DNA of 54,067 nt from an uncultured delta proteobacterium (GTDB taxonomy: Bacteria; Myxococcota_A; Polyangia; Polyangiales; Polyangiaceae): NCBI GenBank assembly GCA_903906315.1, contig CAIVJW010000313.1:1-54067 (forward strand), written 5' to 3'. Positions 6,261 through 25,700 of the stretch are shown here, in pieces. The notes beneath the pieces were generated by a model. The model saw only the letters and a program-made list of their open reading frames with translations. It did no database searches and was not told where the DNA came from. The position numbers were made by a program, and so were the translations under genes. The number at the start of each line of letters is the position of its first letter. The stretch's first letter is position 1.

Positions 6261-6457
6261 TTGGTCCTCCGCGGAGGGGCGTCCCCGCTGCTATCTCGAG
6301 GTCGCGCCGATTCACCGATGCCTGTCACCATCGCGAAGAGGAAATGGCTTGCCAGATTGGCTCGCCTGGGGCCGGCAAGAGCCGCGTTCTTGGGAGCGCG
6401 ACTCGACGCTTCATCATCGTACCTTAGAGCAACGGCGGCTCGTCCAAGGAGGCATAC

Positions 6458-7048: not shown

Positions 7049-7173
7049 CTGTCAGGGTAGCCTCTCCACGCCCCTTCCATGCTCGGCGTTGGCAGCCGCC
7101 TCTTAGCCGCCGTAGCAGTCATGCACTACTCGGACGAGCACAGAAGCTGTTGCCCACACCGCACCTTGTCCGC

Positions 7174-9261: not shown

Positions 9262-9298
9262 CTCGTCGTCCTCACGTGCCTTCTGCCGCGCCCCGCGA

Positions 9299-9463
9299 TC
9301 AGTGAAGCTTCACTTCGTACAGCTGCCCCTGGCGCAGGTACACGCGGAACGACTTGTGGCAGTGCTTGCACTGCGCGGAGAAGCTCCCCGTGGCGCTGCC
9401 GAGGCCGTGATTGAACGTACCGGTCGACGAGCAGTGCGGGCACACGACGGTCACCTGGGCCAT
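9299..9463 (-). CDS. 54-residue zinc-ribbon protein
   Basis: A short gene with AAGGAGTGAAGAC just before the ATG at 9463. The protein (MAQVTVVCPHCSS...) has CPHC at residues 8-11 and CKHC at about 33-36, a classic two-pair zinc ribbon, then a basic strand ending VKLH. It sits 37 bp before the start of the FGE-like gene and 47 bp after the stop of the peptidase gene, on the same strand, so it is one member of the operon. The role is unknown; it may be a nucleic-acid or protein adaptor. Confidence 0.75.
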   Translation of the reverse strand: MAQVTVVCPHCSSTGTFNHGLGSATGSFSAQCKHCHKSFRVYLRQGQLYEVKLH

Positions 9464-9510
9464 GTCTTCACTCCTTCAGTTCATGCTTCCACGACGAACC
9501 ACGCGCGGGC

Positions 9511-11304
9511 TCACCTCGAGACCCACGCGTCGATCTCCTCGCCATCGTCGTCGACGACGATCGCGACGTGCTTCGTTCCCCACGGCGTCTTCTCGGCCGC
9601 CGAGATCGATGCGCGCCCGACCGTGCTCGCCCGGTAGCGGAAGACCTCGACGCCCTTCGGTGCGACGCCGAGCAGGTGCTGGATCCGCTGCTCCAGCTGC
9701 GCTCCGGATCGGAACTGGGTCGACAGCTCGGCCAGCTGCAGCCGGCCGCGCGAGAGCGCCTGCCAGTCCCCGGGGGCGAGGCGACCGCGCAGGCGCTCCC
9801 TTGCGTCCCCGACCGTCGACCGCCCGATCCCGGCGAGCCGCGCGCGCGTCTGATCGAGCACCGAGCCCCCGGCACCGACGGCTCCTGCCTTCGCGGACCC
9901 GCGCCGCCCCCCGGGCATCGCCAGCTTCGCGCCGCTCGAGCGCGCCACCCCCTCAACACGGGCGTTGGGAGAGCCGTAGAGCACGAACGACAGCAAGGTG
10001 TTGTGCAGCTGGGGCGAAAGGGGCTCCCCGTCCTCCTCGGCAGCCTCGAGGAGTGCTCGCTTGGCGGCGAGGAGAGCCTCGCCGGCGGACATCCCCATGT
10101 CGAGCCCTCGATACAGGCCGACCACGATCAGATCGGCGAGGCTCGGTGGGGCAGCCGCCGGCCCCCACGCGATGATGGTCGACCCCACGAAGCACCCGGC
10201 CCCGCCCGCGAGGAACGCCGTGCTGATGGCCTCCTCGCCCTCGAAGAGGGCGGCGCCGTAGCACGCCTCGCTCGCGACGATCGCGCGGGACGCGACGCGG
10301 ACGTGCTTCGGGCGGACGACCGCCGGGTACGCACCGCGCCCGTCGTCGCCGACCCACATCGGCTCCTGATCGGTGCCGTGGACGTTGAAGTACAGGCGGC
10401 CCGGCTGCTCGCCCATCGACTCGGCGACGTCTCCTTCGTGTCGAGGAGGTGCGAGCATCAGCCGTGGACCTCCGCGAGGAGCGATGCACTCGAGGACCGC
10501 CTCGCTGGCGCCCCGCCAGGTCGACGCCGACACGGCGATACCGGGCGTCCACCGCGGCACGAGAGCGCTCTCCGCCGCCAAGATCTGCCGAAGGAGGTTC
10601 GCGTCGGTCGTGGGGACCCGGCCCACGGGCACCTCGGGCAGGATGCGCCCGACGAAGCGCTCGTCCTCGCTCGGCGTCGACGTCATCCCGTAGAAGTTGT
10701 CGGTGGGGACTCCTTCGTCTTTGCCGGTCGGGTCGGCCACGCCGGGCATGGGAAGGTCCCACGGCGCGCCGACGAGGCACACCGCCGACGGACGCGACTT
10801 CGCGATGGATCGCTGCACCGATTCGAGCGCGTCGTCGGGGGAGACCTCGAGCACCACCCCGAAGGACCCGGCGACGCGAGCGAGCTCGCGCTGTCCCCTC
10901 GGAACGACGACGAGCGTCGTGGTCGCGTCGTGCGAGACGGCGGGGCCGCCGGTCGGCCGCGTCCCGCCCCGAGCCGGTGGCGGGAGCGCGCCGGCGCCCG
11001 CACCCGAAGGGTGCCCGCCGGACGCCCGCGCGGGCACGACGGCGGCCGGCGTCGACACGCGGGCGGCGGTGGTCGCCGGTGCAGGCCGCGCCACCGCCGC
11101 CTGGCCCGTCGGCGCGTTCGCGACGGGCGCTCCCAGCCGAGCCCCACACCCGCAGCAGAACACGTCGTCCGCGTGGTTTCGCACGCCGCACGCCGTGCAC
11201 GTCGGATCGCTCGTCGTCCCCCGGTCTCCCAGCCGTCGACCGCAGGCGTCGCAGAACACATCCCCGGGCGAGCAAGAAGCCAGGCAGCTCGGACAGGCCG
11301 TCAT
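9511..11304 (-). CDS. C25-like caspase-fold cysteine peptidase with two zinc ribbons
   Basis: 597 residues. Start at 11304 follows GAGGAG and overlaps the stop of the upstream gene (ATGA). Two zinc ribbons occupy residues 4-54 (CPSC/CDAC, CTAC/CGCG). A Pro/Ala-rich linker runs to about 125. The peptidase domain follows: TDNFYGM (201-207) and VPVGRVPTTD (226-235) resemble the gingipain-family C25 pattern of a D-x-x-Y strand and a G-R-x-P strand. The His of YFNVHG (H309) and the Cys of SEACYG (C348) fit the clan CD His-Cys dyad. A C-terminal 120-residue segment has no recognised domain. Clan CD peptidases often act as executioners in bacterial conflict or cell-death systems. The substrate is unknown; the neighbouring zinc-ribbon proteins are candidate partners. 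Confidence 0.75.
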   Translation of the reverse strand: MTACPSCLASCSPGDVFCDACGRRLGDRGTTSDPTCTACGVRNHADDVFCCGCGARLGAPVANAPTGQAAVARPAPATTAARVSTPAAVVPARASGGHPSGAGAGALPPPARGGTRPTGGPAVSHDATTTLVVVPRGQRELARVAGSFGVVLEVSPDDALESVQRSIAKSRPSAVCLVGAPWDLPMPGVADPTGKDEGVPTDNFYGMTSTPSEDERFVGRILPEVPVGRVPTTDANLLRQILAAESALVPRWTPGIAVSASTWRGASEAVLECIAPRGGPRLMLAPPRHEGDVAESMGEQPGRLYFNVHGTDQEPMWVGDDGRGAYPAVVRPKHVRVASRAIVASEACYGAALFEGEEAISTAFLAGGAGCFVGSTIIAWGPAAAPPSLADLIVVGLYRGLDMGMSAGEALLAAKRALLEAAEEDGEPLSPQLHNTLLSFVLYGSPNARVEGVARSSGAKLAMPGGRRGSAKAGAVGAGGSVLDQTRARLAGIGRSTVGDARERLRGRLAPGDWQALSRGRLQLAELSTQFRSGAQLEQRIQHLLGVAPKGVEVFRYRASTVGRASISAAEKTPWGTKHVAIVVDDDGEEIDAWVSR

Positions 11305-11633
11305 GGCTCCTCGCCCTTGCCCGCGGCGCCTTCGACGGCGGGGCTGCTCGTCGACGCGCCCTCGACGACGACGAGATCCTCGGGGCGCACCCGCAGGACC
11401 CCGTTGCGCCACGTGCCCGCGGCACGGACCCGAGCCCCGACGAGCCTCGAGAGCGTCGGCTCCTCGAACGGAGGGTCCTCGAGCACGTGGACCCGCGTCA
11501 CGAGCTCGTCTCCGGACTCCGACCGCGTGACCAGCACCGGCGCCTCGTGTTCCGAACGCGTGCCGACGAGCACGCGACGCAGCTCGATGACGCCCTCGAT
11601 CTCGGATCGTCCGTCTGGCTTGCCCATCGGCAT
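11301..11633 (-). CDS. small beta-barrel-like protein in the SPFH/peptidase operon
   Basis: 110 residues. The start at 11633 overlaps the stop of the SPFH-like gene (ATGA), and its own stop overlaps the peptidase start in the same way, so three genes are tightly coupled. An in-frame ATG at 11627 is an alternative. Successive short beta strands (GVIELRRVLV, APVLVTRS, LVTRVHVLED, ARVRAAGTWRNGVLRV) would suit an OB-fold-like or similar small barrel. The tail is Ala/Gly/Glu-rich. The fold is inferred by eye; the function is unknown. Confidence 0.6.
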   Translation of the reverse strand: MPMGKPDGRSEIEGVIELRRVLVGTRSEHEAPVLVTRSESGDELVTRVHVLEDPPFEEPTLSRLVGARVRAAGTWRNGVLRVRPEDLVVVEGASTSSPAVEGAAGKGEEP

Positions 11634-14473
11634 CAGACGACCCTGTGCCCATTGCCGCAGAAGTTGTCGCCGGGGTCGAGCGCGACGCCGCACACCGGGC
11701 ACGGGGGAGCGCTGGCGCGAGGATCTGCCGTCCCTTTCGGCTCGCTCGCGGCGACCGCAGGGACGGGCGCCGGCGCCGCCCCCGGGACGACGGGCGCCGC
11801 CACGAAGCCGGGCGGGGCGCCCGCTGGCACCGCGTACACGGGAACGCCTGCGCCGGCCGTCGCCACCTGCGCCATCCCGCCCATCGCCCTCTCCGCCATC
11901 GCCACCGCCCCGAGAGCCCCCTGCGTCTGAGCCGCCTGCCGCGCGAGGTCGGCCTCGCGCTGTCCCCCGACGGCGGCCGTCGTCACGCTCCCGAGCACCT
12001 GCATCTGGTGCGCTGCCTGCGCACTCTGCATTCGCATCGCCTCGAGCAGCTGGGCCTGCGAAGCCCCGGCCGTCGTGGCCTGGATCGCGAGCATCCGCTC
12101 GAAGAGCTCCTTTTCGATCGCCGCCTCCCGGGCGTTCGCCGCGGCCTCCGCCTCGTGCTTCTTCGCGATGGCCATCGCCTCGGCCTCGTACTTCTTGCCC
12201 ATGGCCTCGGCCATCTTGTCGGAGCTCTTCATCGCGAGCATCTGCTCGACCGTGAGCCCTGAAAGCTGCTGCTGGATGCGCTCCTGGTGTTCGAGGGCCG
12301 CGCGCTCCTTTTCGGCCTCGAGCTGTCGAGCCCGGAGCTCGTTGTCGGCGGCTTGCTGCGCACTCCGAGCGGCGGCCTCGGCGTCTCGCTGGGCGATCTC
12401 CGCGTCCATCGCGAGCAAAGCGCGCATCTTCTCGATCTTGATCTGCTCGCGCCTCGCCTCGCCGTCGAGCTCGAGCTCCTGTTCCGACCGCTTCACCTCG
12501 ACGTTCGCCGAGCCGCGGGCGCGAGTGCCATACGCGTCGGCGTCGACGTGAGTCCTCGCCACATGCCCCGCCGTCTCGGCGTCCGCCCGCTGGATCACGG
12601 TCCGGTCGTCGAGCTCTCGCCGCTTCCGCTCCGAGTCGAGCGCCATCGCATCTCGCGCGATCGCGGCGTCGTGCTGCGAGACCTGACGCTCGAGCTGCAT
12701 CTCGTGGGTCGCCTTGACGTTCTGCAGGCCCAGCTCGTGGTGCGTCCGCTCGACCTCCTCGACCCGCTGGTGCTGCACCTCTTCCGTGCCGCGGCCGCGC
12801 TCGTACCGGAGACGCTCCGCCTCGCGCTCCCGCTCGTACCGCTGCTGGTCGGTCTCGTTCGTCCGCTGAAAGCCGACGGTCTGCTGGAGCGCCTGCTGCT
12901 CGAGCGCACCGACGGTCAGGCTGTCGGCGTGGTCCTCGGCGCGCCCCGCCCGTTCTCCTTGCCGGCGAGCCGCATCCAGACCGATCGCCGTGCCCACCGT
13001 GCGCTGCGCGTCGGCGACGTCGAGCTGCGCGCCTCGATCGAGGAGCTCCTGCCGACGCGCGCGGTCGTCGAGCACGTCCCGGTCCTGCGCGAAGGCCTGG
13101 TCGCGATCCATCCGCTGCGATCGCAGCACCAGCTCGAGCGTCATCGCCTGCACGTCGAGGTTCTGCGCCTCGACGCCGACCCACTCCTTCGCCAGCTCAG
13201 CCTCCGCAAGCGCCTTCTGCAGCTCCGCACGCGCGCCGAGGAGCCACTCGTGCCCCTTCGACCGGATGTCCACGAGCGTGACGTCGGTGATCTCGAGCCC
13301 GGCGGCCCGAAGGCCCACGCCGATCGTCTCCCGCAACGCGGCCTCGACGGCGGTGAACCCGGCCGCGCTCGCGATCTCGCCGTACTTCCTGCCGCGCACG
13401 TGCTGTGCGATGGCGCCCGCCACGAGCGGCGCGACGCGCTCCTCGAGCCCGGCCACGGCGGTGCCCTGGCAACGGACCACGACGTCGCACTCGACTTGCT
13501 GCCCGTCCGCGGTGTGGATGGGCATGTCTGCCGAAGCGCGGTCCGCGAACGGCTCTCCGCACTTGCTGCAGAACTTCTTGCCTTCGGCGACGAAGGCGCC
13601 GCACTTGCCGCAGCCGCGCGTCGGGTGCGTCATCACGGGCTGCGACGCCCCGCACTTGCCGCAGAACTTCTTCGACGCCTCGAGCTCGACGGCGCACTTC
13701 ACGCACTTCTTCGTCTGCGGCAGCGTCCCCCCGCCAACGCGCACGCTGGCGGACGCCGTCGACACGACCGGAACGATGCGAACGGAGAGGTCGACGCCGT
13801 ACCCCTCCCCGACGCGCTGCTGCACCTCGGCCTGGACCTCGGCCTCGACCGCCGCGCGCTGCGCCGGGTCGAGGCGCCGCGCGGTCAGGCGAGGCTCCAA
13901 GATGATCCCGATCTGCGGCCGGATCTGGTCGAGGAACGACTTCGAGTCGGCCGCGTCCCGATCGCCGACGACCTGCTCGATCATCCGGAGCAAGCTCGCG
14001 TCGTCCTTGCGGATGCGGAGCTCGACGACCACCTGGTACTTCGTCGCGGCCCCTGCCTCGGCGATGTCGATCGCGAACGGCAGCGCCATCGGCCGGAGCG
14101 CGACCAGGTAGACCGCCGCCCGATCGATCTTGCCAGTGAAGAGGTTCTTGAACCGGTCGAGCACGCCCTCGGTCGTCTGGAACCCGGGACGCAGGCGCTC
14201 CTTGATCTCGCCATCGAGGAGCACGAGCCCGAGCGTGCCGTGGGGGACCGTGACCCCGGCGGTGAACAGGCCCCCCTTCAGGTCGTTGCGGGCGACGCGC
14301 CGAACGAACTCGTGCGGCGGGCGACGCCAGATGCCCGCGGCGACGAAGCCCTCGTCGGCCGACGGCTCCTCCGCCCAGCTCGCACCGCCGAGGGGCTTGC
14401 CACAGTTGCGGCAGCAGGCGTTGCCGATGGGGTTGGTGGTGCGGCAGCTGGGGCAGGCGATGGCATCGGACAT
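11633..14473 (-). CDS. SPFH/Band-7-like zinc-ribbon coiled-coil protein
   Basis: 946 residues. GAGGTCACCC precedes the ATG at 14473. An N-terminal zinc ribbon (CPSC...CRNCG, residues 7-24) leads to a Band-7-like beta/alpha segment (TVPHGTLGLVLLDGEIKERL onward, about 75-250). Two central zinc ribbons follow (CVKC/CGKCG and CGKCG/CSKCG, about 265-335). A second SPFH-like stretch ends in ITDVTLVDI (about 420). A long Arg/Glu/Gln coiled coil follows (about 430-770), then a Met/Ala-rich region, a Pro/Ala linker and a C-terminal ribbon (CPVCG...CGNGH). There is no signal peptide. Such proteins assemble into rings or scaffolds, often at membranes. As first gene of the operon it may organise the peptidase and the FGE-fold sensor. 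Confidence 0.75.
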   Translation of the reverse strand: MSDAIACPSCRTTNPIGNACCRNCGKPLGGASWAEEPSADEGFVAAGIWRRPPHEFVRRVARNDLKGGLFTAGVTVPHGTLGLVLLDGEIKERLRPGFQTTEGVLDRFKNLFTGKIDRAAVYLVALRPMALPFAIDIAEAGAATKYQVVVELRIRKDDASLLRMIEQVVGDRDAADSKSFLDQIRPQIGIILEPRLTARRLDPAQRAAVEAEVQAEVQQRVGEGYGVDLSVRIVPVVSTASASVRVGGGTLPQTKKCVKCAVELEASKKFCGKCGASQPVMTHPTRGCGKCGAFVAEGKKFCSKCGEPFADRASADMPIHTADGQQVECDVVVRCQGTAVAGLEERVAPLVAGAIAQHVRGRKYGEIASAAGFTAVEAALRETIGVGLRAAGLEITDVTLVDIRSKGHEWLLGARAELQKALAEAELAKEWVGVEAQNLDVQAMTLELVLRSQRMDRDQAFAQDRDVLDDRARRQELLDRGAQLDVADAQRTVGTAIGLDAARRQGERAGRAEDHADSLTVGALEQQALQQTVGFQRTNETDQQRYEREREAERLRYERGRGTEEVQHQRVEEVERTHHELGLQNVKATHEMQLERQVSQHDAAIARDAMALDSERKRRELDDRTVIQRADAETAGHVARTHVDADAYGTRARGSANVEVKRSEQELELDGEARREQIKIEKMRALLAMDAEIAQRDAEAAARSAQQAADNELRARQLEAEKERAALEHQERIQQQLSGLTVEQMLAMKSSDKMAEAMGKKYEAEAMAIAKKHEAEAAANAREAAIEKELFERMLAIQATTAGASQAQLLEAMRMQSAQAAHQMQVLGSVTTAAVGGQREADLARQAAQTQGALGAVAMAERAMGGMAQVATAGAGVPVYAVPAGAPPGFVAAPVVPGAAPAPVPAVAASEPKGTADPRASAPPCPVCGVALDPGDNFCGNGHRVV

Positions 14474-14730: not shown

Positions 14731-16590
14731 ATGCCGAAGGTCTGCTCGAAGTGCAACGCCGCCGTGGCGCCCCAGAACGCCTTCTGCGACGAGTGCGGCG
14801 GGTCGCCGACGGAGGTCATCGAGTCTCCCGAGGCCATCGCGCAGTACGAAGAGATCCTCGGCGAGTTCGCTGCCGACGGCGTCCTCGACCAGGACGAGCT
14901 GGACGCGCTCGCGCACGCCCGGGCCGAGCTCGAGATCTCGCTCGCGACCCACGACGCCCTCGTCGCGAAAGACCCGCGGCTCGGGCAGGCGCTGCGGGTG
15001 ACGGTCGAGGTCGACGAGGCCACGCTCGTCGGGTTCCTCGCGGGGACGCAGGGCATGATGCGCGTCCGCGTGCGGAACGCAGGCAGCAAGATCCTCCGCA
15101 GCGCGCTGTTGCGCTACGCGGTGAGCGGCGAGGACCACGTGCGCGAGGAGTCGCTGCGGATGCTGAAGCCGACCGCTCCCGTGGTGGTCGGCGCCATGGT
15201 GCTCCTGCCGCGGCACGGGCAGTACATGCTCGAGCTGGTCGTGCGGGTGGAGGACCTGCTCGGGAAGGTGCAGCAGTTCTACCGCTCCGAGCCGATCGGG
15301 TTCCGCGTCGGGCAGGATTCGGCGAGCGGGCCGCAAAGCCTCGTAGTCAACCAGTTCGTCCAGGCCGACGCGATGCGGGTCGCAGGCGACAAACTCGCCG
15401 AAGTGAATGTCGGCGCCGCGACAGGAGGCACGCGGGGCGGTGCGCTATCCGACGAGCAGTGGAGGGCCATCAGCCTGCGACCGATCTCCCCGAGCGAGTG
15501 GGAGCACTGGGCACTGCGACGCGATGCCGGCGCGCGGCAGGCCGCGGCGGACGAGGCACGGCGAACGCAGGAGGCGGCGGAGGCGAAGCAGCGGGCCGAG
15601 GCGGAGGCGAGGGAGCGGGCCAAGGCGGAGGCCACGGAGCGCGCGCGGCGGGAGGCGGAGGCGAGGGCCCGTGCGGAGGCGGAGACCCGGGAGCGCGCTC
15701 GCGCGGAGGCGGCAGCGCGCGCGAAGGCCCAGACGGAGGCCGCGGAGCGCACCCGAGCCGAAGCGGCGGACCGCGAGCGTGCGGCGGCCGCCGCGGCGGC
15801 GAAGGCGCGCGAGGCGGCGTCGTTGGGCGCGCGGCTCGCGTCGGTGGCGCCGGGGGCCGCGATCGTCCGCGTGCCCGCGGGGACGTTCCGGATGGGGACG
15901 CCGTCGGGCGGGTACGACGACGAGCGCCCCGTGCACGCGGTGACGATCACGCGGCCGTTCGAGCTGTGGTCGACGCCGGTGACGCAGGCACAGTGGAAGG
16001 CGCTGATGGGCAACAGTCCGTCGAAGTTCAGCGGCGACGCGCGGCCGGTCGAGTGCGTGAGCTGGTACGACGCGGTGGCGTACTGCAACGCGCTGTCGCG
16101 GGCGCTGGGGCTCGACGAGGCGTACGTGCTGACGAGCGTGAAGGGCAAGCCCGGCGCCGAGGGGTTCGAGGCGAGCGTCGCGTGGAAGGGGCTCGGATGC
16201 GCGGGGTTCCGGCTGCCGACGGAGGCGGAGTGGGAGTACGCGTGCCGGGCGGGGACGACCGGGGAGCGGTACGGCGAGCTCGACGCGGTCGCCTGGTACG
16301 ACAAGAACTCGGGCGGCGAGACGCACCCGGTCGCGAAGAAGCAGCCGAATGCGTGGGGGCTCTACGACACGATCGGCAACGTGTGGGAGTGGGTCTGGGA
16401 CTGGAAGGGCGAGTATTCGCCGGGCGACCAGCGCGACCCGACGGGTCCCGATGCGGGCGCTGGCCGCGTCTATCGCGGTGGGGGCTGGAGCGTCGTCGCG
16501 GACGTCGCCCGGGCCGCGTACCGCCGCGGCGGCGGCCCAGGCACCCGCGGCGGCCGCCTCGGCTTCCGTCCCTCCAGGTCGCTGCCGTAG
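14731..16590 (+). CDS. DGR target protein 1: FGE/CLec-fold variable protein
   Basis: 619 residues from the ATG at 14731 (MPKVCSKCN). Order: zinc ribbon (CSKC...CDEC, residues 5-23); acidic helical segment (QYEEILGEFAADGVLDQDE, about 33-75); beta-rich segment (about 85-215); Ala/Glu/Arg coiled linker (about 265-370); FGE/SUMF1-type C-type-lectin domain from VRVPAGTFRMG (about 380) to the end. Conserved fold landmarks include GFRLPTEAEWEYACRAG and GNVWEWVWDW. The last 40 residues are VR1 (about 575-616) and differ from the TR-encoded residues at Asn, Asp and Ser positions. The catalytic Cys pair of formylglycine-generating enzymes is not present, so it should bind rather than oxidise. It is convergent with the DGR operon. 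The ligand is unknown. Confidence 0.92.
   Translation: MPKVCSKCNAAVAPQNAFCDECGGSPTEVIESPEAIAQYEEILGEFAADGVLDQDELDALAHARAELEISLATHDALVAKDPRLGQALRVTVEVDEATLVGFLAGTQGMMRVRVRNAGSKILRSALLRYAVSGEDHVREESLRMLKPTAPVVVGAMVLLPRHGQYMLELVVRVEDLLGKVQQFYRSEPIGFRVGQDSASGPQSLVVNQFVQADAMRVAGDKLAEVNVGAATGGTRGGALSDEQWRAISLRPISPSEWEHWALRRDAGARQAAADEARRTQEAAEAKQRAEAEARERAKAEATERARREAEARARAEAETRERARAEAAARAKAQTEAAERTRAEAADRERAAAAAAAKAREAASLGARLASVAPGAAIVRVPAGTFRMGTPSGGYDDERPVHAVTITRPFELWSTPVTQAQWKALMGNSPSKFSGDARPVECVSWYDAVAYCNALSRALGLDEAYVLTSVKGKPGAEGFEASVAWKGLGCAGFRLPTEAEWEYACRAGTTGERYGELDAVAWYDKNSGGETHPVAKKQPNAWGLYDTIGNVWEWVWDWKGEYSPGDQRDPTGPDAGAGRVYRGGGWSVVADVARAAYRRGGGPGTRGGRLGFRPSRSLP
16454..16577 (+). repeat. 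DGR variable repeat VR1
   Basis: 124 bp at the 3' end of the target gene, aligned without gaps to the TR at 16967-17090 (reverse strand). By hand count 101 of 124 bases match. All 23 differences lie at TR adenines: 16 to G, 4 to T and 3 to C. The last 20 bases, which contain a single adenine, are identical and would act as the initiation-of-mutagenic-homing end. The repeat ends 13 bp before the last base of the stop codon. Confidence 0.97.
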
Positions 16591-16597
16591 GCAGCGA
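16579..16597 (+). other. hairpin just downstream of VR1
   Basis: TCGCTGCC, a three-base loop GTA, and GGCAGCGA form a perfect 8-bp stem. The stop codon TAG spans loop and stem. The same hairpin lies at the same distance from VR2 and is absent after the TR. In the known Bordetella phage DGR an inverted repeat just after the VR promotes retrohoming, so this is probably the equivalent element. Confidence 0.85.
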
Positions 16598-16733
16598 GGC
16601 TCCCGCTCACCACCTGCCGCCTTTCGACCTTTCGACGTTCCGACGCCCGGCTCGGCAGGAGCGAGCGGGCGCGGTCGGACTCGGAGCGCTGCGAAGCCCG
16701 CGACGAGGAACGACTGCGCCTGCGAAGCGGGGG
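16598..16733 (+). repeat. conserved 3' flank of VR1
   Basis: About 135 bp after the hairpin match, with scattered differences, the flank of VR2 (19007-19140, reverse strand). Shared blocks include CTCGGCAGGAGCGAGCGGGC and GCTGCGAAGCCCGCGACGA. No reading frame explains the conservation. It may come from duplication of target gene plus flank, or be needed for target recognition. Between it and the terminator at 16788 I see nothing else but a G-run/C-run hairpin near 16753-16777. Confidence 0.75.
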
Positions 16734-16787
16734 TTGTGCGAAGCGACGGAGCGCGGGGGTGCGGGGGGAACCCCCGCCCGACAAACG

Positions 16788-16837
16788 CACAAAAACAGCC
16801 GCCGCTGGGGCGAGCGAGCTCGCAAGGCCAGCGGCGG
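16788..16837 (-). terminator. intrinsic terminator of the DGR operon/TR transcript
   Basis: CCGCCGCTGG (16799-16808) and CCAGCGGCGG (16828-16837) form a perfect 10-bp stem. Read on the minus strand it is followed by CTGTTTTTGTG. It lies about 130 bp beyond the 3' end of the TR, so it would end the HRDC-avd-RT-TR transcript after the template and its downstream spacer. Confidence 0.7.
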
Positions 16838-16966
16838 TCGACGTCTTCGTCCGGTCCTGCGTGCGACCGGCTCGGGCTCGGGGATGAATGGTCGGGAGGC
16901 AGGCGCGCTGACCGAGTCCGTGGACGCGGTCATTCTGGCCGACGGCAGAGCCGTTCGCTTCCCGGG

Positions 16967-17090
16967 CTGGAGGGACGGAAGCCGAGGTTGTCGTTGCGGT
17001 TGCCTGGGTCGTTGTCGTTGCGGTACGCGGCCCGGGCGTTGTCCGCGTCGTTGTTCCAGCTTCCACCGCGATTGACGCGGTTAGCGCCCG
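16967..17090 (-). repeat. DGR template repeat TR
   Basis: 124 bp on the RT strand containing 30 adenines, 29 of them clustered in or near AAC, GAC and similar codons. In the target frame it would encode ten Asn and five Asp in 40 residues, including WNND, YRNDND and NRNDN. This is the usual DGR design, because mutating AAC can reach many residues but no stop. Its 5' end overlaps the RT stop codon by eight bases. It differs from VR1 and VR2 only at adenines and lacks the hairpin found after both VRs. It is a non-coding RNA template, not a gene. Confidence 0.97.
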
Positions 17091-18112
17091 TCGTCCCCTC
17101 GCCCCGCCGCGCCGGACCTCGCGAACAAGGACCGGCGAAGGCCCCGCGTGTGGCCCCAGCGGGACCACGCGACGAGGCTTTGCAGCGACGCGAGCGCACT
17201 GGTGGCTGATTCGCCTCCGCGCGTCAACTCGCGTTCGAGCGCGCGCACCCGCCGGACGAGCCGTCGTCGCCTCGCACCGTCGAGGCGCACCACGGCGGGA
17301 AAGAGCCTGAAGCCGAGGAACGGCACGCCCTCCGTCACCGGCAGCACCTGCGTGACGCGCGCCTTCAGGCGCAGCGCGAGGCGGTCTCGGGTGAACGCAT
17401 CGATCGCGGCCGCGTGCGCCCAGAGCGCGTCCTTCGAGGGCGCGAAGACGAGCACGTCGTCCATGTAGCGCACGTACGCCCGAACCCCGCGGCCGCGCGT
17501 CACGAAGCGATCGAGCGCCCCGAGGTAGAAATTCGCGAAGTGCTGGCTCGTGAGATTGCCAATCGGCACGCCCCGGCCCGGCTCCGATCCCGGTGCCCCG
17601 GCCCGCACGAACACCTCGGCCAGCGCGAGCAGGGCTGGCTCACGGAGCCGCGCGCGCAGCATCGCGAGGAGGACGTCGTGCGAGAGCGTCTCGAAGAAGT
17701 GCTCCACGTCGAGCTTGAGCGCGAAGGGGTGCTGCCTCGCGAGCCCCGCCGCGAACCACACCGCGGCGAGCGTCCCCTTGCCCTTGCGGCACGCAAAGCT
17801 CGCGTGGCTCGCGCCGCGTTCGAGGTCCGCCTCGATCTCGGCGCAGAGCGCGTGGTGGACGACGCGGTCGCGAAACGCGGCGGCGCTGATCGTCCGCGGC
17901 TTCGGGTCCGAGATGGTGAACGTCCGGTACGCCGCGGGGCGGTACGCGCCGCGCCGAAGATCGTCCTGCAGCGCGAGCACCTGCGCTTCGCGCTCGATCA
18001 GGAACCGCAGCGCGTCGGACCCGCGCGCGCCGCGAGCGGCGAGCGAGGCGGCGCGGAGGAGCGACGCAAACGACGTCAGTCGGTCGAACCGCTGCGACTC
18101 AGCCATCGCCAT
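17081..18112 (-). CDS. DGR reverse transcriptase
   Basis: 343 residues from the ATG at 18112, which overlaps the Avd stop by 14 bp; a second ATG at 18106 is possible. RT motifs in order: [20 protein letters not shown] (71-90), catalytic Asp in LKLDVEHFF (D135), [17 protein letters not shown] (181-197) with the DGR-type I-G-x-x-x-S-Q, YMDD (216-219), and FLGFRL near 265. The thumb is short and basic. It lacks the maturase and endonuclease domains of group II intron RTs and the VTG-type motifs of retrons. It copies the TR RNA with errors opposite adenines so that cDNA replaces the VRs. The stop lies inside the TR. Confidence 0.96.
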
Positions 18113-18464
18113 CGAGCCCGCCCTGAAGCTGCTTCAACCAGGCCCCGATCCCGCGGCCGAACGCGTCAATCTCGCGCGAGCAGTGCTCGTACGCCCTGGG
18201 GTCGAGGCACCGCCGCGCGTGGGCGAGACGGACGAGCAGGCGGATGCGCGAGAGCCGCAGGTTGATCTCGCGGAGCGACCGCGCCCTCCGCTCGCCCCGC
18301 GTGTACTGCGCTTCGACCAGCTGCTCCGCGACGTCGAGCGCCGCCTCGTCGAGGCGCTGGCCGAGCACGTACCGGAGCGCCTTCGGGAACTTGCTCGTGC
18401 GGTCGAGCAGGTCGCCCACGAAGCGCTCCCAACCGACCGCGAGCTCGAGGCCCTCGCGGCTCAC
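18099..18464 (-). CDS. avd: Avd-like accessory variability determinant
   Basis: 121 residues from a GTG at 18464 that overlaps the HRDC stop (GTGA). It is all-helical and basic: FVGDLLDRTSKFPKALRYVL, ALDVAEQLVEAQYTR, LREINLRLSRIRLLVRLAHA and AFGRGIGAWLKQL fit the four-helix bundle of Avd/S23-like proteins. Avd forms a pentameric barrel that binds the RT and template RNA and is needed for mutagenic cDNA synthesis in known DGRs. Length and position directly before the RT are typical. Confidence 0.9.
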   Translation of the reverse strand: MSREGLELAVGWERFVGDLLDRTSKFPKALRYVLGQRLDEAALDVAEQLVEAQYTRGERRARSLREINLRLSRIRLLVRLAHARRCLDPRAYEHCSREIDAFGRGIGAWLKQLQGGLDGDG

Positions 18465-18955
18465 GGCGAGCCTGCGGGCGGCGCTGGGTCCGTCTCGGCG
18501 AGGACGCGCAGCACATCCTCGGCGAAGCTCCGCACCTTGCCGTCACCGACGCCGTCGATGCGGCCGAGGGCCTCGAGAGTCGTGGGGCGCGCCTTCGCGA
18601 TCGCGGCGAGCTGCCGGTTGGTGAGCACGAGGTAGACAGGCAGCCCGTCCGCCCGGGCGCGGGCGCCTCGCCACGCTCGGAGCGCCTCGAAGCGCGCGCG
18701 CTCCGCGGGGTCGAGCTCACGCTGGAGGCCCTCGCGGCGCTCAGCCCACGCCGGCCTCGCGCCGCTCGCCGCGGACGGGGCCTCGTCGATCGGCCGGTAG
18801 CTCACGACCAGGCTCATCCACGGCGCGCGCTCGTGCTCGAAGAAGAACGTCTCCGTCTCGACGACCTCGACCGAGTCCATCCACTCGCGGAGGGCGTCGT
18901 CATCGAACCCGCCACGCGCGGGATCGAACCGCAGCGTGAACACGCGGACTTTCAT
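18461..18955 (-). CDS. HRDC-domain DGR accessory protein
   Basis: 164 residues. GGAGAG lies 8 bases before the ATG at 18955. The N-terminal 75 residues (MKVRVFTLRFDPARGGFDDD, then EVVETETFFFEHERAPWMSL) are a small beta/alpha domain seen with DGR HRDC proteins. The C-terminal HRDC domain (about 85-155) has FEALRAWRGARARADGLPVY, then LTNRQLAAIAKARPTTLEAL and GVGDGKVRSFAEDVL. HRDC domains bind nucleic acids, and this class is a known DGR accessory. It begins the operon HRDC-avd-RT-TR. Confidence 0.88.
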   Translation of the reverse strand: MKVRVFTLRFDPARGGFDDDALREWMDSVEVVETETFFFEHERAPWMSLVVSYRPIDEAPSAASGARPAWAERREGLQRELDPAERARFEALRAWRGARARADGLPVYLVLTNRQLAAIAKARPTTLEALGRIDGVGDGKVRSFAEDVLRVLAETDPAPPAGSP

Positions 18956-19006
18956 GTGCCAATCTCTCCAAGACCGTCGAACCTCCCGCCCCGCTCGCTC
19001 GCCACC

Positions 19007-19140
19007 CCCGCTTCGCGGGCACGTCCGTTCGTCGTCGCGGGCTTCGCAGCGCGCCGACTCCGGCCGCGCCCGCTCGCTCCTGCCGAGACGGGCGTCGGAA
19101 AGTCGAAAGGTGGAAAAGCAGCAGGCAGCAAGCAGAAGCC
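19007..19140 (-). repeat. conserved 3' flank of VR2
   Basis: Partner of the VR1 flank at 16598-16733. It lies between the VR2 hairpin and the HRDC gene, so any promoter for the accessory operon that is separate from the target gene would have to sit in or next to it. Confidence 0.75.
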
Positions 19141-19159
19141 TCGCTGCCTACGGCAGCGA
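19141..19159 (-). other. hairpin just downstream of VR2
   Basis: The same 8-bp stem and three-base loop as after VR1, again spanning the stop codon (TAG at 19150-19148) and starting one base after the VR. Confidence 0.85.
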
Positions 19160-20830
19160 CCTGGAGGGACGGAAGCCGAGGTAGTCGTAGCGGCCGCCAG
19201 GGCCGCCGTCGTTGCGGCACGCGGCCCGGGCGAAGACCGCGACGAAGTCCCAGCTCCCACCGCGATTGACGCGGCCAGCGCCCGAGGCGGCACCCGTCGG
19301 GTCGCGCTGGTCACCGGCGAAGTAGTCGCCCTTCCAGTCCCAGACCCACTCCCACACGTTGCCGATCGTGTCGTAGAGCCCCCACGCGTTCGGCTGCTTC
19401 TTCGCGACCGGGTGCGTCTCGCTGCCCGAGTTGCCCTCGTGCCACGCGATCGCGTCGAGCTCGCCGTACAGCTCGCCCGTCGTCCCCGCCCGGCACGCGT
19501 ACTCCCACTCCGCCTCCGTCGGCAGGCGGAAGCCAGGACACGCGAGCCCTTTCCACGTGACCGTCGCCGCGAAGCCCTCCTCGCCCGGCTCTCCCTCCTC
19601 GTCGGTGAGCACGTACGCCTCCTCGAGCCCGACGGCGCGCGACAGCGCGTTGCAGTACGCGACCGCGTCGAACCAGCTCACTTGCTCCACGGGGCGCGCG
19701 TCCCCGCTGAAGCCCGACGGGTCGTTGCCCATCAGCGCCCGCCACTGCGCCTGCGTCACGGGCGTCGACCACAGCTCGAACGCGCGCGTGATCGTCACCG
19801 TGTGCACCGGGCGCTCATCGTCCTCGTCGCTCGACTCCTCCCCCATCTCGAAGGTGCCCGCGGGCACCCTCACGAGGGCGGCGCGCGGCGCGACGGCGGC
19901 GAGGCGCGCGGCGAACGACGCGGCCTCGCGCACCTTCGCCTCCGCCTCCGCCCGCGCGTGAGCCTCGGCCTCCGCCTTGGCGTGCGCCGCCTGCCGCGCG
20001 TGAGCCTCGGCCTCCGCCTTGGCGTGCGCCGCCTGCCGCGCGCCCGCGTCGCGCCGAACGGCCCACTGCCCCCACTCCTCGGCCGACATCGACCGCAGCC
20101 CGACCGCGCCCCACTGCCGCTCGGACAGCGCACCGCCGCGATCGCCGTCACGGACGCCTCCCACGTTCACGAGCGGGTCGCCCGCCACGCGCATCGCCGA
20201 CGCATCGAGGTGCACGCTCACGCTCTGCGGGCCGGCGGCCGACTCCCGGCCGACGCGGAAGCCGATCGGGTCCGCGCGGAAGTACTGCTGCACGGTGCCG
20301 CGCAGGTCCTCGACCCGCACGACGGCCTCGAGCATGAAGTGGCCATGGCGCGGCAAGAGCACGAGCGCGCCGAGCTCGACCGGGTCACCCGGCTTCAGCA
20401 TGCGGATCGGCTCCTCGCGAAGCGCGTCCTCGCCGCTCACGGCGTGGCGCACGGTCGCCGACCGCATCGTCTTCGACCCGAGGTTGCGCAGGCGCAGCCG
20501 GATGAAGCCGTGCGTGCCCGCCACGAAGCCGACGAGCGTCGCCTCGTCGACCTCGATCGCGACGCGCAGGCCCTGTGCGAGGCGCGGGTCGCGCGCGACG
20601 ATCGCGTCGTGCGTGGCCTGCGAGACGCCGAGCTCGAGGCGAAGGTCGGCGAGCTCGGCGAGCTCGGCCGCGTCGAGCACGCCGTCGGCCGCGAACTCGC
20701 CGAGGATCTCCTCGTACTCGGCGACGGCTTCGGGGGACTCGACGACCTCGGCCGCGGCGGCGCCGCAGCGGCCGCAGAAGACCTCGTCGGTCGCGACGGG
20801 GACATCGCACTTCGGGCAAACCTTGGGCAT
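19148..20830 (-). CDS. DGR target protein 2: FGE/CLec-fold variable protein
   Basis: 560 residues. Start MPKVCPKC at 20830 with GGAG 8 bases upstream. The architecture is that of target 1: zinc ribbon (CPKC...CGRC), EYEEILGEFAADGVLDAAEL helical segment, beta-rich segment, a short Ala/Glu/His linker (about 262-305, with a repeated HAKAEAEA unit), then the FGE/CLec domain from VRVPAGTFEMG (about 320). VR2 covers about residues 516-557. The linker is the shortest of the three paralogues. It lies upstream of HRDC-avd-RT on the same strand with a 192-bp gap, so target and mutagenic machinery may share a transcript. It would display a diversified binding surface; no signal peptide is visible, so it is probably cytoplasmic. 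Confidence 0.93.
   Translation of the reverse strand: MPKVCPKCDVPVATDEVFCGRCGAAAAEVVESPEAVAEYEEILGEFAADGVLDAAELAELADLRLELGVSQATHDAIVARDPRLAQGLRVAIEVDEATLVGFVAGTHGFIRLRLRNLGSKTMRSATVRHAVSGEDALREEPIRMLKPGDPVELGALVLLPRHGHFMLEAVVRVEDLRGTVQQYFRADPIGFRVGRESAAGPQSVSVHLDASAMRVAGDPLVNVGGVRDGDRGGALSERQWGAVGLRSMSAEEWGQWAVRRDAGARQAAHAKAEAEAHARQAAHAKAEAEAHARAEAEAKVREAASFAARLAAVAPRAALVRVPAGTFEMGEESSDEDDERPVHTVTITRAFELWSTPVTQAQWRALMGNDPSGFSGDARPVEQVSWFDAVAYCNALSRAVGLEEAYVLTDEEGEPGEEGFAATVTWKGLACPGFRLPTEAEWEYACRAGTTGELYGELDAIAWHEGNSGSETHPVAKKQPNAWGLYDTIGNVWEWVWDWKGDYFAGDQRDPTGAASGAGRVNRGGSWDFVAVFARAACRNDGGPGGRYDYLGFRPSRSLP
19161..19284 (-). repeat. DGR variable repeat VR2
   Basis: 124 bp aligned without gaps to the TR: 105 of 124 identical. 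All 19 differences lie at TR adenines (10 to G, 9 to T). VR2 and VR1 differ from each other at many of these sites, which shows independent mutagenesis. Encoded variable residues include GGSWDFVAVF and CRNDGGPGGRYDYL, where VR1 has GGGWSVVADV and YRRGGGPGTRGGRL. Confidence 0.97.
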
Positions 20831-20978: not shown

Positions 20979-22208
20979 TCAGTCCGGCAGAGGCCCGCCG
21001 ACGCGCTCGCGGTGCACGGGCAGCAGCCACGTGCATGTTCGATGAACGAGGTCGACACCATCGAGCAGCCCGTGCCCGCGATCGAACCGACGCACCCACC
21101 GGCGACCGTCGAGGTCGGGCCACTCCTCGTCCAGCGCCTCGGGGCCGAAGAGGTGGTCGACGTCGCTCACGATGTCGGCAATCGGCCGCGGCTGGCGGAG
21201 GTGAGCTGCCTCGTTGCGGTCCTGAACGAGGCGGCCAATCGCCGCGAGCGACTCCGAGGATCGCAAGCGTTCGAGGCGCCCGGCCGCCCAGCGCGGGAGC
21301 ACGAGGTTCCTGCGCTGCAAGAGCGCCTCGAGGCGATTGCGCACCAGGCCGAACGTGAGGAAGACGCCGCGGTCGCCGCTCTGCGCCGCCGACGCGAGCT
21401 CGGCCACCGGCACGCGGCCGAGCTCGGACGCGACGGCGAAGTCCGCCGTGAGGGCGACCTCGGCGAACTGCAGCAGCGCGTGCTCCTGGAGGCGCTCGTC
21501 CGCGAGGGCGCGCGCGAGCGGCCGGAGCTCGCGCACGAGCGCGTGACCGCCCGCCTCGCGCAGCAGCGGAGCGCCCCCTCCCACGAGCGCCGCGAGCGCC
21601 TGGGTGCCGTGCCGTACGACCGGCTCGAGGTCCTCGTCACGCCACACGCACAGCGCGACACGCAGCGGGCGAGAGCGGCGGCGCGCGTGAACGCCGACCG
21701 CCGTGAAGAAGAGGTGCGCGAAGACCGGCACGGGCAGCTCGAACAGGCCGGTGCCGATGAGGGGAAAGGCCACGCCTTCGAGCCCGTCGCGGTCGACCCG
21801 GGCGAGCACGTCCTCGACGCAGCGACGGATGGTCTCGGCGTAGTAGGGCACGGCGTCGTCCTCGCCGAGGCCGAGCCAGCCGTCGGGCTCGTGAAAGCCG
21901 GCGTGGTAGATGCGCCGGCGCGCGGGGCCGGACGTCTCGAGCACGGTGCCGGCCGGGAGCACCTCGCCGCGAGTCTGCGACCACAGCTCCTCGCGGCACC
22001 TCGGCCAGGCGCGGCAGAGCAGCCCGGACACCGTATCGGGAAGACTCGCCGGGACGAAGTCGGACTGCTCGCTGCTCACCCAGGCGGGCTCGGGCGCGTC
22101 GAGCAGGCTCCCCTGGCGAACCTCGAGACGGACGGGGCCGACGGCCCACGACCACGGGGCCGGGGCGGCAGACGGCGCGGGCGCGGACGAGTCGACGAGG
22201 CGTTGCAT
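20979..22208 (-). CDS. Macro-domain protein with HEPN-like C-terminal domain
   Basis: 409 residues from the ATG at 22208; no strong ribosome site, so the start is tentative. Residues 25-200 look like a Macro (ADP-ribose-binding) domain: VRLEVRQGSLLDA, EVLPAGTVLETSG, RRRIYHAGF and the loop GVAFPLIGTGLFELP (145-159). The C-terminal half is helical and ends near LVQDRNEAAHLRQP; R331-N-E-A-A-H336 fits the R-[ND]-x3-H motif of HEPN ribonucleases. This suggests an ADP-ribose or related nucleotide sensor coupled to an RNase-like or inactive HEPN domain. It is next to the DGR target 2 promoter side on the same strand, 148 bp away. Confidence 0.65.
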   Translation of the reverse strand: MQRLVDSSAPAPSAAPAPWSWAVGPVRLEVRQGSLLDAPEPAWVSSEQSDFVPASLPDTVSGLLCRAWPRCREELWSQTRGEVLPAGTVLETSGPARRRIYHAGFHEPDGWLGLGEDDAVPYYAETIRRCVEDVLARVDRDGLEGVAFPLIGTGLFELPVPVFAHLFFTAVGVHARRRSRPLRVALCVWRDEDLEPVVRHGTQALAALVGGGAPLLREAGGHALVRELRPLARALADERLQEHALLQFAEVALTADFAVASELGRVPVAELASAAQSGDRGVFLTFGLVRNRLEALLQRRNLVLPRWAAGRLERLRSSESLAAIGRLVQDRNEAAHLRQPRPIADIVSDVDHLFGPEALDEEWPDLDGRRWVRRFDRGHGLLDGVDLVHRTCTWLLPVHRERVGGPLPD

Positions 22209-22283
22209 GCGGGCGCGGAGCGTACGCCGAGGACCGCCGCGCGACGATGCCCGGCGCCGGGCGGCACGCGGCGCGCCCGGCGT

Positions 22284-22377
22284 CGACCACGAGAGCGAAG
22301 GTCGAGTTGTGCGAGCCCGCTGATGTGTCTCGAAACACCTCGCGACACAACGCTCCGCCGTTCGGCACTGACGCCGT
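22284..22377 (+). repeat. interspersed intergenic repeat, copy A
   Basis: This segment resembles 36559-36643, sharing CGACCACGAG at one end, GTGTCTCGAA in the middle and GCCGTTCGGCA at the other; similarity continues weakly upstream. Both copies lie in gaps next to minus-strand gene starts. The gap also has an AT-richer stretch (GATATTCTCTTCGATTCCTG) near 22379-22398, the likeliest promoter zone before the kinase gene. Confidence 0.5.
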
Positions 22378-22720
22378 GATATTCTCTTCGATTCCTGTGG
22401 ATTCTGCCGTCTCCCCAACGAGCAAGCGCAGCTAGGTGCGCGACGGCCCTGCCGCGCCGGATGTGTCGCTTGTCATCCAGCAACACAACATCAAGCCGGT
22501 GACCCGACGGCGGGCCGCAACGCGAGGAGACGCGTCCGACCCCGCCATGCCGGGGCCGCGTGGCGAACGCAGCATGCCGCGCGATGAACGGCTGCGCGCG
22601 GCGCCTGCGCACCGCTCGACCGAGCCAACGCCGCGAGCAAGCCCGGCGCGCAGGCTCGCAGCGACGCGCCTCGCCACGCCCCCTGGACGGCCCGCGCACC
22701 CCGTCCTACTCGAGCTCGCG

Positions 22721-25700
22721 ATGACGACGCCGCCCTCGGTCCACGGATGCCGATCCGAGACTGAAGCGCCGCTGCTACGACTGCTGATGGATCGCGCGCG
22801 GAACGCAACGTCACCGCTGGAACGTCACAACGCCGCGTACTACTTGGCCGAGTGCACAATCAAGCTCGCGACGGCGCTCCGCGCGGCCCTCTGGATCGAG
22901 CACGCGCTCGCGCCCGAGAGCGAACCCGCCAAGCTGCTGGAACAGCTGCTCCACCCGTCCCTCGGTCACTGGACGCTCCTGTTCCAGCGCCTCGACCGCG
23001 AGCTCGCAGCGACCCGCGCGCTCGGCGAGCCCCTTCGCACGCGGCTCGAATCGCCGGGACGCACCCGCGTCGGCATGCCTGCCGTAGCGGCGTGGGCGAG
23101 AGAGGCGTTCCAGCGTCGGGCGCTGAGCGCACAGCAGTTCCGAGAAGCCTCGAGCGGGACCATCGCGGGGTTCGTGTCGGTGCTCGGACGCTATCGAAAT
23201 GACGTCATCGGCCACGGCGCGCAGCGCGACGCCGAGTTCTACGAAGCCCTGGGTGCCGCGCTGCTCGCGGCTTGCCTGGAGGTCGTCTCATCGCCGGCGA
23301 TGTTCTTGGGGATGACACTGGAGACTCGGACGTCGACCGACGACGACGAACCCCGAGCCGTCTTCGCAGACGGCAGCGTCGCGTTCGATCTGTCGCCCAT
23401 CGTGGCGGTCGAGCCCGGCTCGCTCGGCCCCCGCGTCGGCATCATCAATCGATCGACTTCGCGAAGTGCGCCCGACCGGGCGCGGCGCGAGCTGGTTCGG
23501 GTGCACTTCCTCGACTACCTGTCGGGGGACAGCTTCGAGGTTCCCTGGGCTGCGGCGCAGATGACGCGCATGCTGTCGCGGCTGCGCGGTCAATCCATCG
23601 GCCTGGAGGACATCGGCATCACGCCCCTTGGCGCGTCCCACGAAGGCGAGGTCAACGGGGCCTTCGCGGGCGAGGTATTCGGCGACTTCGAGCTGGTCAC
23701 CCAGATAGGCCGGGGCGGCATGGGCGTCGTCTTCGACGCGCGGCAGGCGACGCTCGGACGCCACGTTGCGCTCAAGATCCTCACGGCGGACCTCGCGCGA
23801 AACGAACTGACGGTGGATCGGTTCCGGCGCGAGATTGGCATCCTCGGTCGAAGCGAGCATCCGAACGTCATCAAGGTCTACACGTCCGGCGTGGAGGGTG
23901 ACCGGTACTACTACGCGATGGAGCTCGTCGACGGGCTCGACCTCGCGCGCCTGATCGAGCGCCTCCGCACAGGCGGAGCGTCCGTCGCCGCGCACTCCGA
24001 AGCGGCGCTCCGCAACGCAATCGGCACTGCCACGTCTGGCGGGGCAAGTACCGGTCCTGCTTGGCGGAAGGTTGCCGAGCTGTTCGCGGGCGCCGCCGAA
24101 GGCCTCGGGTACCTCCACCGCCGTGGAGTCGTCCATCGAGACGTCAAGCCCGCCAATCTCATGCTGACCGCGGACCTCGCGCGCCTCGTCGTCATGGACC
24201 TCGGGCTCGCCGCGACGGACGACGCGACCGCGCCGCTCACCCGCAGCGAGGCGTTCCTCGGCACCTACCAGTTCGCCGCACCCGAGCAGATCGCCGGAAA
24301 CAGCCATGCGGCGTTTCCGACGATGGACGTCTTCTCGCTGGGGAGGACGCTGCATGCGTTGCTCTCGGTCATGGCGAACGGCGCCACTGCCGCAGCCTCG
24401 AGCCATTCACCGACGTCATTGCCGACCGCGGTCCCGCGTGATCTCCGGGCAATCGTGACCCGAGCGATCGAGCCGATTCCGAACGATCGCTACGTCGCGA
24501 TGTCGGACTTCGCAGACGATCTCCACGCCTTCGTGCGCGGCGAACCGCCGAGCGGCGTGCGGTTTCGCCGCACGCGCAAGCTTCTCCGTACCGCGCGCGC
24601 GAACCCGATCCGTGCAGGGCTCGTGGCGATGTTGCAGCTCGCAGTGCTCGTGAGCGCAGGGCTGGCGGTGCGCTTTGTCCGCGAAGGCCACGCAGACTAC
24701 TGCACGATGGTCTGGCGCCGCGGCGTGCCGATGGGGGAGCTCGCGGTCGGCCGCGAGGCACCCGAGTTCCGGTATCGGGTCACCCGGGCGAAGGGGAAGG
24801 TCCGCAGGGTCGAGCGGCTCAACCCGCAGGGCGCGCTGGCCGAGGACGACGAGCGCCACGCAACGTGGGACGTCGCCTACGACGAGCAAGGCGAAGTGCG
24901 GCAGGTCGTCGTCGGCGATGCACTGCGGCACGTCACGTTGCGCTGGGTCTACAAGGACGGCATCGGCACGGTCTGGCGCGAAGACGCGACCGGCGCCTCG
25001 TATCCCGAACCGTCGTCGCTGGTCACCGGCTATCGGCAGCGCTGGGATCCCGACGGGCACCTCGCCGCGAGAGCGTCGATCACGCGCCACGGCCCGCGCC
25101 CGGACGCCGAACGCGTGCTCGGCTACGCGCTTCACGAGGAACGCGACGGAGACGTGCTCGCGCAGGTCGAGACGGCGGTCGACGAGGCGGGGCGTCCGGT
25201 GCGGCGCGCGTCGGGGTTCGCCACTGTCCGGCTCACGACGCACGCTGGCGAAGCGCTGCGTCGCCTGGAGTACCTCGGGATCGACGGCGCGCCAGCGGCC
25301 CCCGAGGACGGTATCGCCCGCGTCGAGAATCGCTGGGATCCAACGAATCTGGTCGCAACGGAACGCTACTTCGACGTGCACCTCGCACCAACGATGCGCG
25401 CCGGCTGTGCCGCCCGGGAGCGCGCGTGGTCCGCGGACGCGTTGCACGTGCGGTGCCTCGACCCGATGGGCGCGACGGTGGCAGGGAGCGACGGCTACGC
25501 GATCGAGGTGGTGAGCACGGTGCGAAACGGGGCCTCGCGCCGGACTTTCCTCGATGCGAATGGCCAGCCGACGCTCCGCGGGTTCCGGGGATGCGCTTCG
25601 CTGGCGGTGGAGGTGACGGCGGGCGCCGAGGCGGCTCCACGTGGCTGGACGACGACCGAGACCTGCCTCGGCATCGACGGGCGGCCACTCGTGAACGCCA

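Follow-up and report, generated by a model that had tools for sequence, protein, structure and literature searches.

We compared a 54,067-nucleotide stretch of DNA from an uncultured delta proteobacterium (contig CAIVJW010000313.1 of assembly GCA_903906315.1; hereafter the window) to diversity-generating retroelements (DGRs) described in the literature. In the DGR of Bordetella phage BPP-1 (gene order mtd-avd-TR-brt), a template repeat (TR) and a variable repeat (VR) differ only at adenines. The window likewise contains adenine-only TR/VR pairs, a homologous reverse transcriptase (RT) and, as judged by profile, an Avd-family protein. HRDC accessory genes are described in passages of PMC4891356 and PMC10053308. 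The Treponema denticola DGR, in the passages of PMC4891356 concerned, shares with our locus this accessory gene and a variable protein of the FGE type, but has the HRDC gene between TR and RT, whereas in the window Avd and HRDC are encoded upstream of the RT and the TR lies behind it. Cyanobacterial DGRs, as portrayed in parts of PMC7517822, have C-terminal CLec/FGE domains fused to Ser/Thr kinases as well as remote variable proteins, and both are again found here. Thiohalocapsa PB-PSB1 and similar multi-DGR bacteria (sections of PMC10907252) resemble our genome in having several DGRs, FGE sensors on signalling proteins and duplicated targets. Finally, portions of the DiGReF survey (PMC3521204) describe DGRs with more than one VR, with remote VRs located on other contigs and with undiversified paralogs, all three of which are present here with no difference in kind from those portions, and a TR overlapping the RT end, as in the window, defines structural group 3 of the same survey. 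Since targets that are multiple, remote or fused to kinases have all been described before, as have HRDC and Avd, the DGR in the window is a further example of an established class. The library searched contains no paper naming both diversity-generating retroelements and Myxococcota, and in a paper that mentions these elements and myxobacteria, the passages on the latter deal with retrons. What distinguishes the locus is the completeness and cleanness of its mutation record within one genome. The window almost certainly harbors a complete DGR, in which one template serves the target genes VP1 and VP2 in cis and a gene for a kinase-FGE protein in trans. That the element is complete had been proposed in a first-pass annotation of the sequence, and is supported by the adenine-only VRs, the position and motifs of the RT, the Avd and HRDC genes and the FGE targets.

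The TR (positions 16,967-17,090, minus strand) comprises 124 bp, with 30 adenines and 94 other bases. At its 5' end it shares 10 bp with the end of the RT gene, whose TAA stop codon is located inside the TR. VR1 (16,454-16,577, plus strand) forms the 3' end of VP1 and VR2 (19,161-19,284, minus strand) that of VP2. In these orientations, both VRs align to the TR without gaps across all 124 bp. VP1 is on the strand opposite to the cassette and is still served by the same TR. Between VR1 and the TR there are 23 differences (A>G in 16 cases, A>T in 4 and A>C in 3), and between VR2 and the TR there are 19 (A>G in 10 cases, A>T in 9). All fall on TR adenines, and in either VR 0 of the 94 other bases differ. 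Our re-alignment thus reproduced the coordinates, lengths and counts of the first-pass annotation exactly, and non-adenine differences were found in neither VR. If the differences were randomly placed, the chance that all would fall on the 30 of 124 adenine sites is 3e-19 for VR1 and 5e-15 for VR2. An adenine-specific repeat-pair scan, which covered the window and 36 further stretches of the same genome (15 of them contig stretches of at most 20 kb, the other 21 shorter loci), returned TR/VR1 and TR/VR2 as the only pairs within the window. It found no pair in five dinucleotide-shuffled windows and recovered the BPP-1 pair used as positive control (119 bp, 17 of 23 adenines changed, no non-adenine change). 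On the random-placement probabilities and the shuffles, we rejected chance repeats as the source of the TR/VR pairs. When C or G was scanned instead of A, we obtained four matches each in the window; the three listed for each base carry 1 to 8 other errors apiece and are located in repetitive parts of the VP1 and VP2 genes. A scan for T returned the same two TR/VR pairs on the opposite strand.

We searched the draft genome to which the window belongs (G000; 455 contigs, 8.79 Mb, contamination estimate 1.34%) with the TR and found a third full-length match, VR3, on contig C236 (10,609-10,732). VR3 departs from the TR at 22 positions, again exclusively adenine sites, of which 14 have changed to G, 6 to T and 2 to C, and 0 of the 94 other sites are changed. 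When the whole draft genome was searched with an adenine-masked TR pattern, allowing for up to three mismatches, precisely four places matched, namely TR, VR1, VR2 and VR3, each with 0 mismatches, and the reversed pattern used as a control matched none. VR3 terminates an 852-amino acid protein, in which residues 347-585 form a Ser/Thr kinase domain and residues 610-846 an FGE domain. The kinase gene and VP1 are 88% identical over 929 bp, which comprise the FGE part, the VR and the 3' flank, and their upstream regions show no blastn match. This arrangement suggests a way for the cassette to gain another signalling output, namely by transfer of the FGE domain along with the target site 3' of it. 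In a draft of so many contigs, with some estimated contamination, C236 might have been misbinned from another strain or organism, and the cassette would then serve two targets alone. We consider this very improbable, as VR3 agrees with this particular TR at 94 of 94 non-adenine sites and carries its own set of adenine changes, and as the 929-bp segment is so similar to VP1. The first-pass annotation had counted two independently mutated targets; there are three, one of them in trans, and the comparison of the VRs that follows suggests that they were mutated independently.

The sequences flanking the three VRs have diverged. The 450 bp located 5' of the VRs differ by 13.8% (VR1-VR2), 10.0% (VR1-VR3) and 15.4% (VR2-VR3), and the 150 bp located 3' of them by 13.3%, 9.3% and 8.7%, respectively, but each pair of VRs shows 0 of 94 differences at non-adenine sites. 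These findings together indicate that the VRs were overwritten from the TR after the paralogs had diverged. At the 30 TR-adenine sites, the three VR pairs have the same base in 11, 9 and 8 cases, where permutation predicts 9.1, 10.4 and 9.4 (p = 0.27, 0.79 and 0.78). The coincidences are thus at chance level and give no sign of a shared origin of the VR changes, and the three mutation sets look independent. The VR reading frames are open through to a common C terminus in all three target proteins. A paralog of VP1 and VP2 in the window (7,174-9,261, minus strand) has the same architecture, with 62% amino acid identity to VP2 in the FGE part and 46% in the N-terminal part. Its VR-equivalent is absent from the matches of both the TR search and the adenine-masked pattern in the draft genome, and no inverted repeat of at least 6 bp follows it. 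This paralog is a natural control for evolution without homing. The presence of three rewritten targets and an undiversified paralog in one genome makes template rewriting separable from ordinary divergence (0 of 94 versus 9-15%). Over VR1-VR3, all 64 of 64 substitutions are found at TR adenines (40 A>G, 19 A>T, 5 A>C). The prevalence of A>G, at 40 of the 64 changed sites, is what adenine deamination would yield, and a mutator other than an RT, be it deaminase-like hypermutation or gene conversion between paralogs, could be invoked. It would not account for the A>T and A>C changes, for the restriction of all changes to copies of a template that adjoins a DGR-type RT, or for unchanged non-adenine sites between diverged flanks, and its probability appears negligible to us.

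The RT gene (17,081-18,112, minus strand) encodes a full-length protein of 343 amino acids, in which the IGNLTSQ (position 184) and YMDD (position 216) motifs reported in the first-pass annotation are intact. The former fits the (I/V/L)GxxxSQ motif of the DGR clade, as defined in a portion of PMC3521204. The protein is 34% identical to BPP-1 brt, and its best match among solved structures is 8ub7 (E = 7e-43), whose sequence is matched by BPP-1 brt over its full length. Our tree of 75 RTs, a quick maximum-likelihood one, omits duplicate places and extracted stretches shorter than 240 amino acids; the group II RT of the genome itself (C197) is absent from it, and no retron row was knowingly entered. 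The RT of the window locates to a branch of 59 rows (SH-aLRT 99). All 42 rows with a TR/VR pair belong to this branch, the label standing for a pair of at least 60 bp in our scan. Its 57 relatives there include 15 without such a label, some of them on short contigs. Sixteen rows are positioned outside, including two CRISPR-type RTs of the same genome. The first-pass annotation named a grouping with retrons or group II introns as a refuting result; in this tree of the rows listed, the RT lies with the TR/VR-paired enzymes. A group II intron RT was considered and rejected (TIGR04416, 110 bits versus a cut-off of 300), as was a retron RT (NF038233, 43 bits versus 235); for both, the window has no Rfam match at gathering scores, which for retrons refers to the Rfam families only.

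The two accessory genes proposed to lie beside the RT are both present. Avd (18,099-18,464, minus strand; 121 amino acids) is recognized by Pfam bAvd (49.7 bits, cut-off 40) and by the PHROG profile 'Avd protein of DGR' (5e-20), and the HRDC-domain protein (18,461-18,955, minus strand; 164 amino acids) by an HRDC match of 4e-20. The HRDC, Avd and RT frames are open and overlap by a few bases. Compared to BPP-1, the TR is located 3' of the RT and overlaps its end, an HRDC gene is added, the targets number three with one in trans, and FGE is fused to a zinc-ribbon-like part or to a kinase. In addition, none of the eight window open reading frames (ORFs) scanned with PHROGs belongs to a phage structural or packaging family. 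Four related loci (L130, L131, L113 and L135) show the same order target-HRDC-Avd-RT as the window. In L131, L113 and L135 the RT is followed by a TR, and in L130 the scan detected none.

A 19-bp element with an 8-bp inverted repeat, TCGCTGCC-GTA-GGCAGCGA, is found one base past VR1 (16,579-16,597, plus strand), where it spans the stop codon, and one base past VR2 (19,141-19,159, minus strand). It also follows VR3 at a distance of one base, and is thus present after three of three VRs, but not after the TR. In BPP-1, for which a hairpin requirement is reported in a part of PMC3240598, our own scan also detects an 8-bp hairpin shortly past the VR and none past the TR, resembling the situation in the window. 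The inverted repeat may act as a target-site element after the VR. When compared to the cyanobacterial DGRs, as far as the parts of PMC7517822 cited above describe them, host and RT neighbours are different, and in our system the 3' flank and the inverted repeat have moved with the FGE part as one 929-bp segment.

Several observations weigh against our reading of the locus. The RT tree is a quick one. Avd scores slightly below the cut-off of the NCBIfam Avd model (77.6 versus 80 bits) and has no significant BLASTP match to BPP-1 Avd. The membership of the third VR depends on the binning of contig C236. The loop of the inverted repeat is GTA, as opposed to GAAA in BPP-1 and GRNA in phage DGRs generally, its fold has modest z-scores (-1.7 to -1.9), and its three copies are not independent, because the 3' flanks are homologous. 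In a strict scan, stems of at least 6 bp were found for 11 of 67 VR rows (three of them from this system), 13 of 67 TR rows and about 6% of shuffled VR stretches. Stems of this kind are not more common after VR than after TR among the relatives, and we thus rejected the inverted repeat as a general mark of the RT clade. Lastly, any present-day activity would have to be deduced from a single draft genome.

By analogy with BPP-1, homing would start with transcription of the TR. RT and Avd, presumably assisted by the HRDC protein, would then copy the TR RNA to cDNA, with misincorporation solely opposite template adenines, and the cDNA would replace VRs that agree with the TR at non-adenine positions. 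The first-pass annotation saw in the repeats direct evidence for adenine-specific retrohoming. The pattern indeed records past homing, but this wording is slightly strong as to present activity. A recently inactivated element, homing until lately and no longer, would be hard to recognize, as activity is not visible from one genome. Clean pairs without a working RT are reported in a portion of PMC3521204. Another locus in our genome, on contig C55, has retained an adenine-only pair next to a partial RT match (see below), and a clean pair is thus no proof of a working RT. In the window, however, the RT is of full length with intact motifs, the Avd and HRDC frames are open, and no non-adenine change has accumulated in VR1, VR2 or VR3. 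We thus regard recent inactivation as unlikely, and the complete DGR is probably still active.

We found further adenine-only pairs among the scanned stretches of the genome, on contigs C415 (22 of 32 adenines changed), C55 (13 of 25) and C223 (14 of 28), each with 0 non-adenine differences. Together with the set of the window, 113 of 113 differences are located at adenines. On C415 and C55, the target is again a kinase-FGE protein. On C55 (L034), the TR is found at 5,162-5,288 and the VR at 4,845-4,971, and the RT match (6,398-6,712) covers query residues 19-121 only, as expected of a recently broken element. An ORF at 5,727-6,203, between the partial RT and the TR, has what we take to be a GxxExxY-like appearance. 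On C373 (L032), a TR-like sequence is present near the contig start (164-273), and no clean partner was found in the first 15 kb scanned; it may belong to another DGR truncated by the assembly. RT matches are present in 28 of 59 genomes, our own included. TR/VR pairs 100 bp or longer that have no more than one non-adenine difference were found in 8 of 17 stretches around the stronger RT matches and in 30 of 56 named loci (41 of 56 with laxer limits). These loci were drawn from 84,980 species genomes, and two of them duplicate two of the 17 stretches. Some RT relatives stem from records titled Myxococcales and Myxococcota. Viral contigs contain one distant RT relative (25% identity), 112 phage records have an RT match, with a best identity of 39.7% among the matches listed, and 603 plasmids have one, all below 60% identity.

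VP1 (14,731-16,590, plus strand; 619 amino acids) consists of an N-terminal part, a linker rich in Ala, Glu and Arg, and an FGE (C-type lectin) domain ending in VR1. VP2 (19,148-20,830, minus strand; 560 amino acids) has a zinc-ribbon-like start (Pfam 20.3 bits, below the cut-off of 25), helices, a predicted beta sandwich, a linker and an FGE domain ending in VR2. The two N-terminal parts share 65% amino acid identity, and blastn aligns the genes along their length (72% in the N-terminal part, 82% in the remainder). An FGE-sulfatase domain is found near the C terminus of VP1, VP2 and the remote kinase protein, and the best solved relative of the VP2 FGE part is T. denticola variable protein 1 (2y3c, E = 6e-43). 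The genome has 57 FGE-sulfatase domain matches, a large pool of possible variable-protein relatives. The helices and beta sandwich of VP2 derive from a model of its N-terminal part (mean pLDDT 72, three-row alignment), for which fold matches are weak: the top-ranked ones are unrelated large proteins, and the CARDB chain 3idu ranks fourth (TM 0.65 by target, 0.31 by query). This N-terminal part has matches in 3 of the 59 genomes, its own included.

VP1 and a double zinc-ribbon gene (11,633-14,473, minus strand; start inferred at an internal ATG of a 1007-amino acid ORF), a possible partner, are arranged divergently. Behind the latter lies a Peptidase_C25-like gene (9,511-11,304, minus strand; start inferred at an internal ATG of a 713-amino acid ORF), a possible effector. 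The C25-like protein matches Pfam Peptidase_C25 (38.6 bits, cut-off 23) and, below cut-off, a zinc ribbon, and it has HG and EAC motifs, which we take to be the clan-CD catalytic dyad. Relatives of the zinc-ribbon protein occur in 9 of the 59 genomes at E = 1e-3, our own included, and are strong in our own and in G003 only. In G003, a kinase protein with an N-terminal part distantly similar to that of VP2 (E = 5e-5) is divergent from the zinc-ribbon relative. A single-sequence model of the middle region of the zinc-ribbon protein (mean pLDDT 49) supports no fold claim, although by eye this region looks SPFH/band-7-like. PADLOC found no defence family in VP1 or in the zinc-ribbon, C25-like and macro-domain proteins. 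Unlike in bacteria of the Thiohalocapsa PB-PSB1 type, NACHT, STAND, MoxR and vWA have no match among the 18 ORFs (8 and 10 in two batches, of 304 with at least 60 amino acids) that we scanned with Pfam in the window. Some of these may be wrong frames, since six of the ten in the second batch have no match at all. Next to the kinase-FGE gene on C236, the convergent gene at 5,540-10,417 encodes a DUF4011 / AAA / REase_MTES_1575 protein with a 1222-bit match to PDC-S37, a candidate defence family of PADLOC.

The DGR may serve to alter the face that FGE/C-type-lectin sensor domains, joined to different signalling parts, present to ligands, a proposal to which we give about an even chance. Its targets may instead serve to tune internal kinase and signalling networks, as proposed for kinase-fused targets of cyanobacteria in a part of PMC7517822. 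Among the three targets of our TR is a Ser/Thr kinase, and other DGRs of the genome have two more kinase-FGE targets. The kinase target, however, adjoins a candidate defence gene, the target of the close relative L113 is a NACHT-FGE protein, and multi-DGR genomes are linked to conflict systems in sections of PMC10907252. We hold network tuning to be possible rather than probable. Because of the NACHT-FGE relative, the defence-like neighbour and the zinc-ribbon/C25 context, we favour variable sensors in conflict or recognition systems, the role proposed for multi-DGR multicellular bacteria in the same sections of PMC10907252, over pure network tuning. More tentatively, and with considerable doubt, one template might diversify the sensors for two outputs: zinc-ribbon/sandwich/FGE proteins with the divergently encoded zinc-ribbon protein and the C25-like peptidase, and, in trans, a Ser/Thr kinase with the neighbouring candidate defence helicase-nuclease (PDC-S37). 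A single RNA would then hold the binding faces of separate pathways to one repertoire. This would represent a DGR-diversified immune or self/non-self network, of a composition not met in the literature examined. If the sensor reading is right, the locus would offer a tractable case for asking about the ligands of cellular DGRs.

Contigs C375 and C185 (L072 and L073) encode closely related long RT proteins that are sisters in the tree. The C375 protein matches a CRISPR-associated primase-polymerase model with 142 bits (cut-off 200), and behind it lies an ORF that looks Cas1-like by eye. The C197 RT is a group II intron maturase (402 bits, cut-off 300). In the window, beyond VP2, a protein with a short macro-domain match is encoded at 20,979-22,418 (minus strand) and a 1273-amino acid Ser/Thr kinase protein at 22,436-26,257 (plus strand). 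A Dynamin-family GTPase is located near the contig end (52,460-53,947, plus strand).

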